This document shows positions 19,492 to 26,039 of a stretch of 64,000 nt of DNA, piece after piece. The stretch's first letter is position 1. Every line of letters starts with the position of its first letter. The position numbers were made by a program, and so were the translations under genes. The notes under the pieces were generated by a model. The model was given only the letters and a program-made list of their open reading frames with translations, had not been told where the DNA came from and did not search any database. Source of the DNA: Thermus amyloliquefaciens (GTDB lineage: Bacteria; Deinococcota; Deinococci; Deinococcales; Thermaceae); assembly GCF_000744885.1 (NCBI RefSeq), contig NZ_JQMV01000003.1, positions 62,001 through 126,000 on the forward strand, read 5' to 3'.

Positions 19492-19520
19492 ATTATTCTA
19501 CCCCCTTACCCCTTTGTCAA
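19492..19520 (-). promoter_or_regulatory. groESL promoter
   Basis: On the minus strand TTGACA (19515-19520) is followed after 17 bp by AATAAT (19492-19497). It is a near-consensus housekeeping sigma promoter. The operator follows about 10 nt downstream. Confidence 0.75.
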
Positions 19521-19538
19521 GGGGGTTGAGGGAGGTCG

Positions 19539-20615
19539 TTATAGGGTGGGGGCCTGGTGCCCGCGCACTACCCTGAGCTCCAGGCCGTGGGCGAGAAGGA
19601 GGCCCTGCAAGGCCAGGGCCCGGGCCAGCCCCGGGGGGGCTCCAAAGATGGGGCGGCCCTTTTCCCCGGGGTAGAGGAAGTAGCCTTCGGGTAGGAGGAG
19701 GAGCACCCCCTGCCGGGCCCGCGCCGCGCCCCGAAGGGCGGCCCGCAGGAAGGCTTCCTCCGCTGCCTGGCTCACCAGGAGGTAGGTGCTTCCCGGCGGG
19801 GCGGGTGGGGGGAGGGCGGGGGAGGGGGTGGGGGCAAGCCGGGCGAGGAGGGCCAGGGCCCGCTCCAGGTGGGCCTTGCCCCGGCCCAAGGGGAGGACCT
19901 CCCCTGCGGAGAGGCCGTAGCGCTCTCCCCGTCTTTCCGCTTTCAGGAGGAGCCAGGCGGCGAGGCTCGCTGCGTGGTCCAGGTAGCTGGGGTGGAGGGC
20001 CTGGGTGTCCAGGTGAAGAAAGAGGCTTCCCAGGAGGCTTTTCTCCACCTCCCGCACCAGGGGCTGCCCCTGGCGGAGGCTGGCCTTCTTGGCCAGGAGG
20101 CGCAGGGAGTCCCCGGGCCGGTAGGGGCGGAGGCCTTTGGCCTCGAGGGGATCGGGGAGGCCGAAGGGCATGGGCCTGCCCTCCAGGAAGAAGCTGGGGA
20201 CGGGGGTGTAGGGGGGTAAGGGCCGCAAGGGGGGGTAGACCAGGACCTTCCCCGCTTCCAGAAGGAGGAGGCGCTCCCCTAGCCCCAGGGGGCTCTGGAG
20301 GTGGAGGCCTAGGCGCACCGGGTGCTCCCCCCGTCTGCGGTAGCGGTGGGGGAGGGGGAGGGAAAGCCGGGTTCTCCCCCAGGCCACCCCGGAAACGCCC
20401 CGGGACTCGAGGCCCAGGGGGGCCGAGGGCAGGCTTTCCAGCCGGAAGAGGACGGGCAAGGGGCAAACGAGCTCCACCTCGGTCCTTCCCTCGCCCCCTT
20501 GCCCAGGGAAGCCCGGGCGAAGCCCCCCCAGCTCCGCCTGGGCCCGGGCCAGCCAGGGTGCCCGGTAAAGGGCCAGGAGGAGGGCAAGCCCCAGGAGAGC
20601 CAAGAGGCTTTCCAT
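19539..20615 (-). CDS. DUF58 family protein
   Basis: 358 residues with one N-terminal hydrophobic segment (LLALLGLALLLALY). The DUF58 signature region reads EAKGLRPYRPGDSLRLLAKKASLRQGQPLVREVE, equivalent to the usual RxYxxGDxxxxIxW motif, followed by a von Willebrand A-like domain that here lacks an obvious full MIDAS motif. DUF58 proteins are typically encoded next to MoxR ATPases and are thought to be their partners or clients. It is the last gene of the operon and starts one base after the MoxR stop. Confidence 0.85.
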   Translation of the reverse strand: MESLLALLGLALLLALYRAPWLARAQAELGGLRPGFPGQGGEGRTEVELVCPLPVLFRLESLPSAPLGLESRGVSGVAWGRTRLSLPLPHRYRRRGEHPVRLGLHLQSPLGLGERLLLLEAGKVLVYPPLRPLPPYTPVPSFFLEGRPMPFGLPDPLEAKGLRPYRPGDSLRLLAKKASLRQGQPLVREVEKSLLGSLFLHLDTQALHPSYLDHAASLAAWLLLKAERRGERYGLSAGEVLPLGRGKAHLERALALLARLAPTPSPALPPPAPPGSTYLLVSQAAEEAFLRAALRGAARARQGVLLLLPEGYFLYPGEKGRPIFGAPPGLARALALQGLLLAHGLELRVVRGHQAPTL

Positions 20616-20616
20616 G

Positions 20617-21531
20617 CTAGGCCCGTTCCACCGGGGTGGGAACAGCCTTGAGGGCTTCCGCCACCAGCCCCTCCGGGCTCGCCCCGGAAAGCTCCGCCTC
20701 CAGCCTCAGGAGAAGGCGGTGGGGAATGGCCGCCCGGAAGGCCCGCTTGACGTCCTCGGGGATGACGAAGGGGCGCCCCTCCAGGAGGGCCAGGGCCTGG
20801 GCCAGGCGCTCCACCTGCAAAAGGGCCCTGGGGGAGGGCCCAAGCCGCAGCTCCTCCCGGCTCCTTAGCCAGGCGGAGAGGGAGAGGAGGTAGTCCAAAA
20901 GCTCCTCGGAAACCTGCACCCGCCGCACCTCTTTCCGCAGGGCCAAAAGCTCCTCGGGTCCGGTGACGGCCTCGAGGCCCGAAAGGGGCTCCCGCTCCTT
21001 TAGGGCCTGGAGCAGGGCCTTCTCGTCGGGGTAGCCCAGGGAGAGCCGGGCGGTAAAGCGGTCCCGCTGGGCCACGGGCAGGGGGTAGGTGCCCTCCTCC
21101 TCCACCGGGTTTTGCGTGGCTAGGACGAAGAAGGGCTCGGGCAGGGGATGGGTCTTCCCCTCCAGGGTCACCTGGCCTTCTCCCATGGCCTCGAGGAGGG
21201 CGGACTGGGTGCGTGGGGTGGCCCGGTTCAGCTCGTCCACCAGGAGGACCTGGGCGAAGATGGGGCCCTCCTGCCACACCAAGCTCCCTTCCCGGTAGAG
21301 GTAGACCCCGGTGAGGTCCTGAGGCAGGAGGTCGGGGGTCATCTGGATGCGGCTAAAGGAAAGGCCTAGGACCCGGGCTAAGGCCTTGGCGAAGGTGGTC
21401 TTCCCCGTGCCGGGCACGTCCTCCAGAAGAAGGTGTCCCCCGGAGAGCAGGGTGGCCAGGGAAAGCCTTAGGGTTTCCTCCCTCAGGAGGACCCGGCCCG
21501 AAAGAGCCCCTTGGATGCGTCTGAGGAACAT
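20617..21531 (-). CDS. MoxR family AAA+ ATPase
   Basis: 304 residues. Walker A is EDVPGTGKTTFAKALA, Walker B LLVDELNRATPRTQSALLEAM and sensor 1 VLATQNPVEEEGTYPLPVAQRDRF, all typical of MoxR AAA+ proteins. MoxR ATPases act as chaperone-like remodelers with a VWA or DUF58 partner, which follows directly. The start overlaps the end of the DUF4129 gene by 49 nt. The client of this system is unknown. Confidence 0.93.
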   Translation of the reverse strand: MFLRRIQGALSGRVLLREETLRLSLATLLSGGHLLLEDVPGTGKTTFAKALARVLGLSFSRIQMTPDLLPQDLTGVYLYREGSLVWQEGPIFAQVLLVDELNRATPRTQSALLEAMGEGQVTLEGKTHPLPEPFFVLATQNPVEEEGTYPLPVAQRDRFTARLSLGYPDEKALLQALKEREPLSGLEAVTGPEELLALRKEVRRVQVSEELLDYLLSLSAWLRSREELRLGPSPRALLQVERLAQALALLEGRPFVIPEDVKRAFRAAIPHRLLLRLEAELSGASPEGLVAEALKAVPTPVERA

Positions 21532-22814
21532 AGCCTAAGGATATCCTTCAAGAAAACTTCCGCCCGTTCCGCTTCCTTCTCCCCGGTCCCTCCCCCGTAG
21601 CGCACGGGCAGGTAAAGCCGGGTGAGTTCCGAAAGGGGCTCCCTTAATCCTGGGAGCAAAGGGGAAACCCTCTCCAGGTATTCCAAGGGTCCCTCGGAGG
21701 CCAGGCGGGGAAGGCCCAGGGCCTTTATGGCCTTCAGGGCCTGGGAATAGGCTCGCCGCACCCGGTCTTGGGGGAGGGTTTCTTGGAAGCGCTTGGAGCT
21801 ACTGGCCGGTATGCCCTGGGCGGCCTCCTGCTCTTCCCAGCCACGGTGGCGCCAAACCAGGAAGGCTAGAAGGGAGAGAAGCCCCAGGGTGAAAAGGGCG
21901 GAAAGCCCCGCCAGGGCTATGCCCACCTCGCCTAGCCGCCTGGGTCCCGGTACGGCTTCTTTTGGGCCCCCCTCTTGGGAAGGGGTGGGCATGGGGGCTG
22001 AGGGGGTGGTTCCCCATGCGCTTTCCCCACCCCCAAGAGTACCCAGGTAGAGGAGGAAAAGGACCCCGGCCAAAAGGGCCAGCAAGAGGGGCAAAAGGTG
22101 AAGCCCCCGGTAGGGAAGCCTTTCCCCCCGGCCCAAAAGGGGCAGAAGCGCCAGGAGGAGAAGAAGGAGGGCCAGGGGCTGGGCATGGGCCAAGGCCCGG
22201 TTGAGGAAGGCCACCCAGGGGGAAAACCCCTCCATGGGAGCCTGGTACATTCCTTCCTCTCCGGACTGGGGTTTCGCTGCCGGGGAAGCCTGAAGGCTAG
22301 GGGGAGTCAAGCTGGGTAGGGGAAGGGCGGGAAGGCGGAGGGGAAGAAAGGCCAGGCTTGCCAGCAGGAGGCCCAGGATCCCTGGGATCCATAGGGTGGA
22401 GGGGGGAGTCCAAAACCGTTCCCCCCGTTCTCGGGCTCGCCTATGGGCTCCCGCCAGGAGGTTGAACCCGTGAAGAAGCCCTAGAAGGAACAGGCCGAGC
22501 GGACCCAGCCCAAGAGCTATAGGCAGGAGGAGGAGGCTTGAAAGGGGCCGTTTTTGAGCGGCAAGGAAAAGGCCATAGAGCAAAAGGAGCCCAGAGGTCA
22601 AGGCCCACTCAGGAAGCCAGGAGGGGAAGGCTAGAGCCAGGGCGCGAAACAGGCCGGGAAGAAAGGCCAACCATAGGAAGCCCTGGGGGTAAAAGGCCTT
22701 GCCCCAGTGGAGGAGGCCTACCCCCAAGACCAGAGAAAGCCCTAACCCTGGCGCAACGCCCACAAGGAGGGAAGCACCCACCAAGGGCACGATGAGGGCA
22801 GGGGCCGAACCCAT
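21483..22814 (-). CDS. DUF4129-type multi-pass membrane protein
   Basis: 443 residues with about seven membrane segments in the first 330 residues, including a long extracytoplasmic Pro/Ser-rich loop (about residues 170-215). The soluble C-terminus has RVRRAYSQALKAIKALGLPRLASEGPLEYLERV...LTRLYLPVRYGG, the DUF4129 pattern seen next to DUF58/MoxR and transglutaminase-like genes. No transglutaminase catalytic triad is visible. The ATG is 6 nt after the stop of a 43-residue peptide gene on the same strand. Confidence 0.75.
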   Translation of the reverse strand: MGSAPALIVPLVGASLLVGVAPGLGLSLVLGVGLLHWGKAFYPQGFLWLAFLPGLFRALALAFPSWLPEWALTSGLLLLYGLFLAAQKRPLSSLLLLPIALGLGPLGLFLLGLLHGFNLLAGAHRRARERGERFWTPPSTLWIPGILGLLLASLAFLPLRLPALPLPSLTPPSLQASPAAKPQSGEEGMYQAPMEGFSPWVAFLNRALAHAQPLALLLLLLALLPLLGRGERLPYRGLHLLPLLLALLAGVLFLLYLGTLGGGESAWGTTPSAPMPTPSQEGGPKEAVPGPRRLGEVGIALAGLSALFTLGLLSLLAFLVWRHRGWEEQEAAQGIPASSSKRFQETLPQDRVRRAYSQALKAIKALGLPRLASEGPLEYLERVSPLLPGLREPLSELTRLYLPVRYGGGTGEKEAERAEVFLKDILRLCSSDASKGLFRAGSS

Positions 22815-22820
22815 CCTTGG

Positions 22821-22952
22821 CTACAGGGGCATGTAAGGGCAGTCCTTCACATCCAACCCACAACCCGAGGGGGAAGAGCGTTGGGTTATGCTTTCTGCGG
22901 GTAAAAGGCCCAGAGCCGAGGCGAGAAACCCTATCAGGAGAACTTTCCGCAC
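22821..22952 (-). CDS. 43-residue exported peptide at the head of the MoxR operon
   Basis: A small frame from GTG: V-RKVLLIGFLASALGLLPA, a classical signal peptide, followed by about 24 residues ending SGCGLDVKDCPYMPL with two cysteines that could pair. It lies 7 nt after a TACAAT hexamer (leaderless) and 6 nt before the DUF4129 gene, so it is the first gene of the DUF4129-MoxR-DUF58 operon. I recognise no family. Support comes from the signal peptide, promoter and spacing; expression is unproven. Confidence 0.6.
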   Translation of the reverse strand: MRKVLLIGFLASALGLLPAESITQRSSPSGCGLDVKDCPYMPL

Positions 22953-22959
22953 GTTAAAA

Positions 22960-22965
22960 ATTGTA
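22960..22965 (-). promoter_or_regulatory. -10 element (TACAAT) for the MoxR operon
   Basis: Reads TACAAT on the minus strand and ends 7 nt before the GTG at 22952. This is the only promoter-like element between the rRNA methyltransferase gene and the DUF4129 gene. Confidence 0.5.
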
Positions 22966-22993: not shown

Positions 22994-23767
22994 CTAGGCT
23001 GGGTTTCTTTGGCGTTGGGCTTCGTAGAGGAGAAGGGCGGCGCTCACCGCCACGTTCAGGCTGTCCGCCACCCCCCGCATGGGGATGCGCACCCGGGTCT
23101 GGGCCCGCTGGAGCCAGGCTTCGGGAAGCCCCTCGTCCTCCGCGCCCAGGAGGAAGGCCACCCCCTTGCGGTAGTCCTCTTCCCAGTAGATCTTTTCCCC
23201 CCGGGGGGTGGCGGCCACCAAGATGAGCCCTTTCCCCTCCAAGAAACCGCCGACCTCCTCCTCGGGGACGGGATAAACGGGTAGGGAAAAGACCGCTCCC
23301 GTGGAGTTGCGGATGACCTGGGGGCTATAGAGGTCCACCCCCTCGGCCACCAGGACCAGGTCCACCCCCGCCCCGTCCGCCGCGCGCAGGATGGCCCCGA
23401 GGTTGCCGGGTTTCTCCAGGCCCAGGAGGACCAGGACCAGGGGGGTTTGCGGGAGCCGGACCCCCTTTAGGCTTTTTTGGGGGATGCGGAAGACCCCGAT
23501 GACGGGCGGGGGATGCTCCCTTACGGAAACCCGCTCCATCGCCTCTTGGGAGAACTCCAGGATGGGAACAGGGCCCGCCAGGGCCCGGTCTTCCGGGGTG
23601 GCCTTGGGGCCGAGGAGGAGGGTTTCCAGGTGGAGGCCGGCCCTAAGGGCCCTTTCCACCTCCCGCCGTCCCTCCACCAAAAAAAGCCCGGCCCGCTCCC
23701 GCTCCTTGCGTTCCTTCAGGGCGGCCAGGGCCTTCACCTTGGGGTTAGCGGGGCTTTGGATGCGCAT
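22994..23767 (-). CDS. SpoU/TrmH family RNA 2'-O-methyltransferase
   Basis: 257 residues. It transfers methyl from SAM to a ribose in rRNA or tRNA. The N-terminal substrate-binding domain (NPKVKALAALKERKERERAGLFLVEGRREVERAL) is followed by the SPOUT knot domain with GLEKPGNLGAILRAADGAG, LLGAEDEGLPEAWL and IPMRGVADSLNVAVSAALLLYE, motifs 1 to 3 of SpoU enzymes. ATG 23767 is chosen because MRIQSPANPKVK matches the family. The start overlaps the upstream gene by 23 nt. The modified nucleotide is not predictable. Confidence 0.9.
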   Translation of the reverse strand: MRIQSPANPKVKALAALKERKERERAGLFLVEGRREVERALRAGLHLETLLLGPKATPEDRALAGPVPILEFSQEAMERVSVREHPPPVIGVFRIPQKSLKGVRLPQTPLVLVLLGLEKPGNLGAILRAADGAGVDLVLVAEGVDLYSPQVIRNSTGAVFSLPVYPVPEEEVGGFLEGKGLILVAATPRGEKIYWEEDYRKGVAFLLGAEDEGLPEAWLQRAQTRVRIPMRGVADSLNVAVSAALLLYEAQRQRNPA

Positions 23768-26039
23768 GGCGGCTCCTCGGCTCGGGGTTTCCCTGGAGGC
23801 GCACCGCAAAGCGGGTTACCCGGGGTCCGGAAAGCTCCAGGGAAACCTCCTCCACCTGGGGCAACTCCTCCAGAAGCCGGGAAAGCCTGAGGAGGATCTC
23901 CTGGTAGGGGGTGGGGTCAAGGGGAGCACCATCCGGGTTTTGCCCGTGCGCGATGGGCTTTACCAGCTCCTGGGCGTCCTTCTGGGTGAGGGGGGAAAGC
24001 CGCTGGCCCAGCACCTGGTCCCCCAGGGGGGTGGGCAGGACCAGGGTGAGGACGGGGCCGAAGAGGGGATGGGGCTTGGCGGTGAGCTTGAGGGAGAGCC
24101 CCTCCCCTTTCCCCAGGGGTAGGCCGAAGCACGCCAAAAGGGCGGCCCCCTCCGCCTGGGTCAGGGCGGTTTTCCCTTCCAGGAGCTTCCTGGCCTCCTC
24201 CAGACGCAGGTCGGGGAAGTCGGGGAAGTGGAGGGGTTCTTCCCGCCAAGCCTTGTAGGCCCAGGCCCGGCTCAAGGCGATGGCCGCCGATTCGGGGAAG
24301 CGGTAGAGGGCCACCCGGCCCGCAACCCGGGCCCGCACCCCGGGGGAGCCCATCACGCAGGCCAGGAGGAGCTTGCTTCCCTCGGCCCTCTCCAAAAGGG
24401 CCAGGAACTCCTCCTCGCTGGCAAAGCCCATGGGTACGAAGAGGAGGAACACGCTTCCCGCTTCGCTTTGCAGGGCTTCTTCCAGGGCCTGGGCGAAGGC
24501 CTCCGCCTTGGCGGCGGAGCCCAGATCCACGTGTTCTACGGCAAGCCCTCCTTCCCTTAAGGCCTCCAGGGCCAGGTTGGAGGGGCCGGAGGCGTTGGAG
24601 ATCAGGCGGACCCGGTTGTTTTCGGGAAGCTGTCCCAGGGCCAGGAGGGCGGCCACGTCAAAGGCCTCCTCCAGGTTGTTGGCCCGGATCACCCCCGCCT
24701 GGGCGAAGAGGGTCCGCACCAGGGGGTCCCGGGAAGGGTGCACCGCCAGGATGGGCTTTTTCTTGCCGATCCTCCGGGCCAGGCGGGAGAAGCGCCTGGG
24801 GTTGCCGAAGCTCTCCAGGTAGAGGAGGATCACCCGGGTTCTTTCGTCCTCCTCCCAAAACTGCAGGAGGTCGTTGGAGGAGAGGTCCGCCTTGGCCCCT
24901 AAGGAAACGAAGGAGGAGATGCCAAGCCCCATGCCCTCCGCATAGGCCATCACCGCCCGGCCCAGGGTCCCCGACTGGCTGGAGATGGCCAAAGGCCCCG
25001 GCTTGGGGAGGGGGGCCAGGCCCGCCGCCAGGCGGACATCGGGGTGGGTGTGGACCATACCCAAGGAGCCGGGGCCCAAAAGGCGCATCCCGTGGCGCCG
25101 GGCCTTGTCGGCCAGTTCCCGGGCTTCCCCTTCCGTGAAGCCGGTGGTGAGGACGATGGCCGCCCGCACCCCCCGCCTTCCCGAGGCCTCGAGGGCCTCC
25201 CAGACCCGCTCCTTGGGCACGGCGATCACCGCCAGGTCCACGGGGCCGGGGATGCTCTCCACCCGGGGGTAGGCGAGAAGGGGCCCCACCGTGCCCCCCT
25301 CCTTGCCGATGGCCTCGTTCACCGGGTACACCGGGCCTTGGAAGCGTCCAAAGATGAGGTTTTCCAGGATGCGGTAGCCGATGCTTTCCGGGTCGCGGCT
25401 CGCCCCCACCACCGCCACCCCCCGGGGGAAGAAGAAGGGGTGAAGGCTGGCGATGGTGGAGACCTTCTCCCGCCACTCAAAGCGCGCCGCCGCCTGTTCC
25501 TCCAGGAGGATCCCAAACTCCACCTCTATTTCCCCGCTATCCCGGTGGGCCCGCACCTGGAAGCCGCTTTCCATGAAGACATTGAGCATCTTCTGGTTTT
25601 CCGCCAGGACATAGGCCTGGAAGCGGCGCACCCCCCGCTTGGCGGCGATCAGGGCCAGGCGCTCCAGAAGGAGGGTGCCCAGGCCTTTCCCCTGGAAGGC
25701 GTCGTCCACCAGGAAGGCCACCTCGGCGGTGTCCTCCCCTTTAAGGCGCACGTACTCCCCCGTGGCCACCATCCTGGGGGGGTCCCCCGCCAGGACGATG
25801 AGGTTCACCTTTTCCTCCTCGGGTTTGGCGGAAAGGAGAAGCTCCGCCGCCTTTTCCGGGGAGATGGGGGAGAAGAAGCGCATGCGCAAGGACTCCGGGG
25901 ATAGGCGCCTCAGGAACTCCACGAAGAGGGGAAGGTCCTTGGGGCCTGCCCGCCTTAGGAAGGCGGTGCGTCCATCCTTGAGGAGGATGGGGCCCTCCTC
26001 GAGGCCGTGCTGGGGCGTGGGTGGGGGCACGTAGCCCAT
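23745..26039 (-). CDS. GNAT acetyltransferase / ADP-forming acyl-CoA synthetase-like fusion (Pat-type)
   Basis: 764 residues. A GNAT domain comes first (about 15-175; VDDAFQGKGLGTLLLERL is the acetyl-CoA loop), then a CoA-binding Rossmann domain (about 200-330; FFPRGVAVVGASRDPESIGYRILENL) and succinyl-CoA-ligase-like domains (about 340-640; LAISSQSGTLGRAVMAYAEG). The C-terminal ATP-grasp domain is reduced to about 110 residues and lacks the usual HKS/ATP-binding stretch, so synthetase activity is doubtful. Proteins of this build (Pat/AcP) acetylate lysines, for example in acetyl-CoA synthetase, and sense small ligands. TAGGCT lies 6 nt before the ATG. Confidence 0.85.
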   Translation of the reverse strand: MGYVPPPTPQHGLEEGPILLKDGRTAFLRRAGPKDLPLFVEFLRRLSPESLRMRFFSPISPEKAAELLLSAKPEEEKVNLIVLAGDPPRMVATGEYVRLKGEDTAEVAFLVDDAFQGKGLGTLLLERLALIAAKRGVRRFQAYVLAENQKMLNVFMESGFQVRAHRDSGEIEVEFGILLEEQAAARFEWREKVSTIASLHPFFFPRGVAVVGASRDPESIGYRILENLIFGRFQGPVYPVNEAIGKEGGTVGPLLAYPRVESIPGPVDLAVIAVPKERVWEALEASGRRGVRAAIVLTTGFTEGEARELADKARRHGMRLLGPGSLGMVHTHPDVRLAAGLAPLPKPGPLAISSQSGTLGRAVMAYAEGMGLGISSFVSLGAKADLSSNDLLQFWEEDERTRVILLYLESFGNPRRFSRLARRIGKKKPILAVHPSRDPLVRTLFAQAGVIRANNLEEAFDVAALLALGQLPENNRVRLISNASGPSNLALEALREGGLAVEHVDLGSAAKAEAFAQALEEALQSEAGSVFLLFVPMGFASEEEFLALLERAEGSKLLLACVMGSPGVRARVAGRVALYRFPESAAIALSRAWAYKAWREEPLHFPDFPDLRLEEARKLLEGKTALTQAEGAALLACFGLPLGKGEGLSLKLTAKPHPLFGPVLTLVLPTPLGDQVLGQRLSPLTQKDAQELVKPIAHGQNPDGAPLDPTPYQEILLRLSRLLEELPQVEEVSLELSGPRVTRFAVRLQGNPEPRSRHAHPKPR

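Follow-up and report, generated by a model that had tools for sequence, protein, structure and literature searches.

MoxR–DUF58–DUF4129 gene sets are widespread, and in related operons MoxR and DUF58 genes accompany one for a TgpA-like protein. In the described MoxR AAA+/VWA systems, such as NorQ–NorD and RavA–ViaA, a MoxR ATPase gene likewise lies beside the gene of a cofactor, and the titles and abstracts of the papers concerned present such pairs as acting on dedicated client complexes, including metal insertion, and do not mention an exported peptide (PMC9976466, PMC10585395, PMC3893208). In Pseudomonas aeruginosa, PA2875, PA2874 and tgpA (PA2873) form a conserved, co-transcribed cluster whose multi-TM membrane protein has an extracytoplasmic part, and no short peptide gene is described for it in the accessible text of the report (PMC3507681). 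The arrest peptides that monitor Sec/YidC (SecM, MifM, VemP and the RAPP type) are a third point of comparison: short ORFs upstream of membrane-protein genes encode them, their N terminus is hydrophobic, their C-terminal motif is conserved and their distribution is patchy (PMC10987492), and the peptide described here shares all of this. Our literature search returned no paper containing both DUF4129 and MoxR.

The window, i.e. the whole stretch of 64,000 nucleotides of Thermus amyloliquefaciens DNA analysed here, carries a gene cluster of this known kind, while the family of predicted exported micropeptides linked to it appears to be undescribed. The genes follow one another in the order peptide, DUF4129, MoxR, DUF58, groES and groEL (Table 1). 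The matches to PF13559, PF07726 and PF01882 all exceed the gathering cut-offs, identifying a MoxR–DUF58–DUF4129 cluster, and synteny is found in 16 Thermus genomes. In contrast to NorQ–NorD and RavA–ViaA, the cofactor here is a DUF58 protein that comes with a DUF4129 membrane protein, and the additional gene encodes the putative exported micropeptide. The likeness to the tgpA cluster, as far as the accessible text of that report describes it, lies in the arrangement around a multi-TM membrane protein (PMC3507681). TgpA combines DUF3488 with a transglutaminase domain, whereas the 443-residue protein of the window matches neither in Pfam, which returned only DUF4129 and a sub-threshold HEPN match. 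Modelled with AlphaFold from 4 sequences, the DUF4129 protein reaches a mean pLDDT of 51, and confidence is confined to its C-terminal DUF4129 domain. The overlap between the end of the DUF4129 gene and the start of the MoxR gene (21483–21531) is of comparable length in most operon-bearing Thermus species. Upstream of groES, a near-consensus promoter (TTGACA-17-AATAAT, 11/12) occupies 19492–19520 in the short gap after the DUF58 gene.

Translated from its minus-strand GTG, the peptide reads MRKVLLIGFLASALGLLPAESITQRSSPSGCGLDVKDCPYMPL followed by a stop codon, which lies 6 nt before the ATG of the DUF4129 gene at 22814. Both of its cysteines, C31 and C38, fall in the mature part. The preliminary description had reported a 43-residue ORF with a signal-like N terminus, two cysteines and a promoter, 6 nt before a membrane-protein gene, and each of these elements is seen in the sequence; the end coordinate it gave, 22965, is the 5' edge of the TACAAT box.

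Table 1. Features of the peptide gene and its operon in the window.
Feature	Position	Strand	Description	Basis
Peptide gene	22952..22821	minus	GTG start, 43 aa, TAG stop	ORF reading
-10 box TACAAT	22965..22960	minus	7 nt before the peptide GTG; predicts a leaderless mRNA	
Signal-peptide-like N terminus	22890..22952	minus	n-region RK, hydrophobic core VLLIGFLASALGLL	alignment, hydropathy filter, N-terminal dN/dS
Conserved C-terminal motif CGLDVKDCPY	22833..22862	minus	residues C31-Y40; cysteines six residues apart	
DUF4129 membrane protein	21483..22814	minus	443 aa, many predicted TM helices, C-terminal DUF4129 domain at residues 355-415	PF13559 E 3.6e-13
MoxR-type AAA+ ATPase	20617..21531	minus	49-nt overlap with DUF4129 gene	AAA_3 (PF07726) E 1.8e-56
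DUF58 protein	19539..20615	minus		PF01882 E 6.3e-8
SpoU/TrmH-type RNA methyltransferase	22994..23809	minus	codirectional, upstream of the peptide gene	

Our sample contained 27 Thermus species genomes, 16 of them with a PF13559 match; one more genome, the seventeenth, is incomplete and gave a partial match at the protein level. Homologues of the peptide were found by tblastn and HMM search in half of these 16 (8/16, the window's own included), each directly 5' of the DUF4129 gene, and the peptide is absent from all 11 Thermus genomes lacking a PF13559 match. At the same locus of the other Thermus genomes, tblastn E-values range from 5e-13 to 7e-6, so that the lack of conservation among other Thermus species, which would have spoken against the preliminary description, is not what we find, and the idea of a real exported peptide linked to this operon is supported. 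The motif C-[GA]-[LM]-D-V-K-D-C-P-Y-x-x-[LM] is present in 8/8 Thermus copies, seven of which terminate exactly there. The copy in G021 (L074:8822-8980) has lost its stop codon, its N-terminal frame is shifted relative to that of G024 (Thermus sp. 2.9), and the CGLDVKDCPYMPM motif is intact; this copy looks broken. The motif pattern has one match in the window and none in 100 shuffles of it, and the window's peptide ORF is far above chance. A scan of the genomes of 84,980 species gave matches in three Thermus and in one Eubacterium MAG contig, the named species with the peptide being T. tenuipuniceus, T. igniterrae and Thermus sp. 2.9. In the f4/g13 genomes a wider pattern reads CGLCV[ASN]DCPY, in which an additional cysteine recalls iron–sulfur proteins, going by the matched sequence alone. 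Searches of Pfam, NCBIfam and PDB with the peptide returned no match, and PHROGs gave only single-member matches at E 0.08–0.09, none of them significant.

In the last 14 codons, pairwise differences number 56, 19 and 179 at codon positions 1, 2 and 3, dN is about 0–0.18 and dS is high or saturated. Judging from these substitutions, the C-terminal motif is under purifying selection at the protein level. The N-terminal part has a dN/dS of about 0.4 to 1.3, its sequence drifting between species with its hydrophobic character kept. A simple translation-coupling uORF, which would need no amino-acid conservation, was rejected because the amino-acid motif is conserved. The shortness of the frame and its GTG start might suggest that the ORF arose by chance, or that the promoter and 5' region of the operon hold a non-coding element here. 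This reading has a negligible probability and is already contradicted by the conservation of the motif in 8 Thermus species, where most changes fall on third positions, by a profile match in another genus and by independent start signals. The peptide belongs to a genuine gene family.

The start signals are of two types. TANNNT lies 6–7 nt before the peptide start in four genomes, which are all four peptide-bearing members of the window's DUF4129 clade; the background rate of TANNNT at this distance from ATG or GTG is 0.6% of such triplets in the window. The three relatives have TANNNT, 6 nt and ATG, and the window has TACAAT, 7 nt and GTG. TANNNT placed 6–7 bp upstream of ORFs is an established and common leaderless promoter type in Deinococcus-Thermus, and the window's peptide promoter appears as an ordinary example with no difference seen (PMC12340547). 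A sigma-70 consensus scan of the window gave no match at the peptide promoter, as expected because the promoter is -10-only. A Shine–Dalgarno sequence precedes the peptide start in four other genomes, and neither signal is found immediately before the chosen ATG in G024 and G018. The G024 frame (L073:6107-6313) continues upstream of that ATG without a stop, and an SD-like sequence and a TTGACA box are seen there. The start of the G024 peptide may lie in that upstream part, and its N terminus may be longer, giving up to about 60 residues.

The peptide accompanies DUF4129 wherever we found it. Across Thermaceae, it is present in 11 of 22 genomes with DUF4129 and in 0 of 28 without (Fisher p 2e-5, phylogeny ignored), and all copies found are adjacent to DUF4129 genes, in both transcriptional orientations and in two chromosomal arrangements. 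The DUF4129–MoxR–DUF58 module precedes ACS-GNAT and TrmH in the clade of G018, G005, G015 and G016 instead of following them, and the G018 peptide keeps its place 5' of DUF4129 in this arrangement too. The distance between peptide and DUF4129 is 3–30 nt and is tight in most codirectional Thermus loci. About half of the DUF4129 operons have no peptide; in peptide-less relatives, among them G003, G001, G002, G008 and G025, the TrmH gene upstream runs up to or into the start of DUF4129. The earlier claim that the peptide leads the operon thus holds for half of the operon-bearing Thermus species and not for the rest. Peptide-bearing genomes are spread across most clades in the trees of MoxR plus DUF58 and of DUF4129, which agrees with either an ancient component that was lost several times or recurrent allelic exchange. 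As read from its distribution, the peptide is dispensable and was probably lost repeatedly.

The N-terminal part of the DUF4129 protein varies with the peptide from allele to allele. Between the window and the peptide-less G003, 15 of 39 residues are identical in residues 3–45 vs 290 of 323 in residues 121–443. In residues 3–45, the window and the peptide-bearing G023, G012 and G007 share 28–34 of 41–43 residues. By this measure, the peptide and the first TM segment of DUF4129 (about 45 residues) move as a block, with one allelic exchange visible. The linkage to TM1 may also be hitchhiking in recombination tracts.

Relatives were found beyond Thermus. The profile of the Thermus peptides, for which E-values of 1e-16 to 1e-22 include training members, matches MVRRSKFILAALFLISLGAMPAVNASATPDNGCGTTVHDCPYTQM in G051, from another Thermaceae genus, with an E-value of 4e-5 before this copy was included. 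The G051 peptide adjoins DUF4129–MoxR genes on the opposite strand and is divergently transcribed. A scan of the flanks of DUF4129 loci revealed two small ORFs of exported type (…TACMRIRDCHFPEKGP…) in G065 and G067, also divergent from DUF4129 and, in G065, with a transposase gene inserted between. The two ORFs are clear relatives of one another (tblastn E 5e-13) and share with the Thermus type a short motif (hhalign E 0.001, probability 20%); the Meiothermus-like relatives have C-x5-C spacing and MRIRDC. The G065 and G067 peptides are probable divergent relatives of the Thermus type, supported more by position than by sequence. No further relative better than E 0.005 was found in 111 Deinococci genomes, a tblastn search of plasmids gave nothing but one chance match, and a motif scan of viral contigs gave no match. 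A tblastn match in G020 (E 0.002) was rejected: no matching small peptide gene is present there, and the neighbours of the match are an array of CRISPR-like repeats and a gene resembling transcription regulators.

The orientation of these copies bears on whether the peptide acts in cis. As a regulatory nascent chain or leader, the ORF would control DUF4129 expression through its translation, perhaps by stalling at the C-terminal motif. The conserved motif reaches the stop codon behind a divergent hydrophobic N terminus, the spacing to the DUF4129 start is tight in most codirectional loci of Thermus, and the patchy distribution is similar to that of known Sec/YidC arrest peptides (PMC10987492). 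The cis, codirectional position that characterizes arrest peptides is found in Thermus but not in G051, G065 and G067, where the divergent orientation excludes cis control of DUF4129 translation. Because the peptide gene is divergent from DUF4129 in these three non-Thermus genomes, a cis-acting leader is unlikely as a general role. Unlike the arrest peptides, the window's peptide has only 43 residues, shows no known arrest motif of the RAPP/RAGP type or otherwise, and precedes a gene that does not encode a Sec/YidC component; half of the operons also have no such ORF. While the motif occupies the peptidyl-transferase centre, a 43-residue chain would be mostly inside the exit tunnel and a SecM-like sensor of export pulling could not work, so the chain is too short for this type. 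Of the roles suggested in the preliminary description, that of a simple leader peptide is therefore disfavoured, given the purifying selection on the motif and the divergent homologues in other Thermaceae; the peptide may still be a client or a sensor, the two other roles named there.

Divergent transcription beside the partner is common for signal/receptor pairs, and the divergent peptide genes could be read in this way. The peptide would then be a secreted signalling peptide or a small antimicrobial, with the DUF4129 protein as its receptor, exporter or immunity factor, and the exported architecture, patchy presence and allelic exchange agree with such a role. We regard it as improbable: the peptide's C-terminal motif barely changes from species to species, whereas pheromones and bacteriocins are usually diversified, and its gene has no dedicated gene for a transporter, peptidase or kinase next to it.

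Export of the peptide is predicted from its sequence. By hydropathy and residue pattern, n- and h-regions are present in the intact copies and a clear AxA site in some copies only. The window's peptide has a putative cleavage site near LLPAES that is not a strong AxA, and good signal-peptidase sites were recognized by eye in G018 (AVA|Q) and G065 (AVA|W). The lipobox L-[AS]-[GA]-C was not seen by eye in the Thermus copies, in which the position -3 to the first cysteine is proline; this cysteine lies about 10 residues beyond the hydrophobic core. The peptide could instead be an uncleaved single-pass membrane subunit of a DUF4129 complex, its N terminus serving as a TM anchor with the cysteine loop outside. 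The hydrophobic stretch after K/R, the several copies without a strong AxA site and the linkage with the first ~45 residues of DUF4129 would agree with this, but the sites in G018 and G065 speak for cleavage, and we consider such a subunit quite unlikely.

In our view, the evidence is best explained by a trans-acting exported microprotein that serves as an accessory factor (ligand, client or small subunit) of the DUF4129–MoxR–DUF58 system, with a probability of roughly 55%. The signal-like N terminus would drive Sec insertion or export, leaving a mature part of about 20 residues in which C31 and C38 probably close a C-x6-C disulfide loop, and the conserved C-terminal motif would face the periplasm. 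There, the peptide may bind the extracytoplasmic face or the first TM helices of the DUF4129 protein, which, by analogy with MoxR/VWA pairs, would relay the state of the peptide to the cytosolic DUF58 and MoxR proteins. MoxR and DUF58 are presumably cytosolic, making direct contact with an exported peptide unlikely, and the DUF4129 protein alone could mediate. Against an accessory role stands the fact that half of the operons function without the peptide. More specifically, and with slightly less than even odds, the exported micropeptides of Thermaceae with their fixed C-terminal cysteine-loop motif may be a dedicated extracytoplasmic ligand or client of DUF4129, coupling it to MoxR–DUF58. If true, this would give a MoxR system of this type, for which no client is known, a partner identified by genetics. 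A small, genetically linked peptide, predicted to be exported and bearing a near-invariant motif, is a handle for finding its partner, and the presence/absence polymorphism among close Thermus relatives offers ready-made comparisons.

The position of the module relative to ACS-GNAT and TrmH differs between Thermus clades (L076-L079 vs L064-L075), and it is always between PGI and groESL where both ends are visible. In the window, 19501–21301 is a recombination mosaic, with most of MoxR and DUF58 93–98% identical in DNA to G008. For the DUF4129, TrmH and ACS genes that flank this part, the closest genomes are G023 and G003, and the DUF4129 protein is only 60% identical to that of G008. Transposase-like genes occur at the 5' side of DUF4129 in G065 (L127:4174-4980) and in G071 (L129, in the TrmH–DUF4129 gap), and the spot 5' of DUF4129 may be an insertion target.
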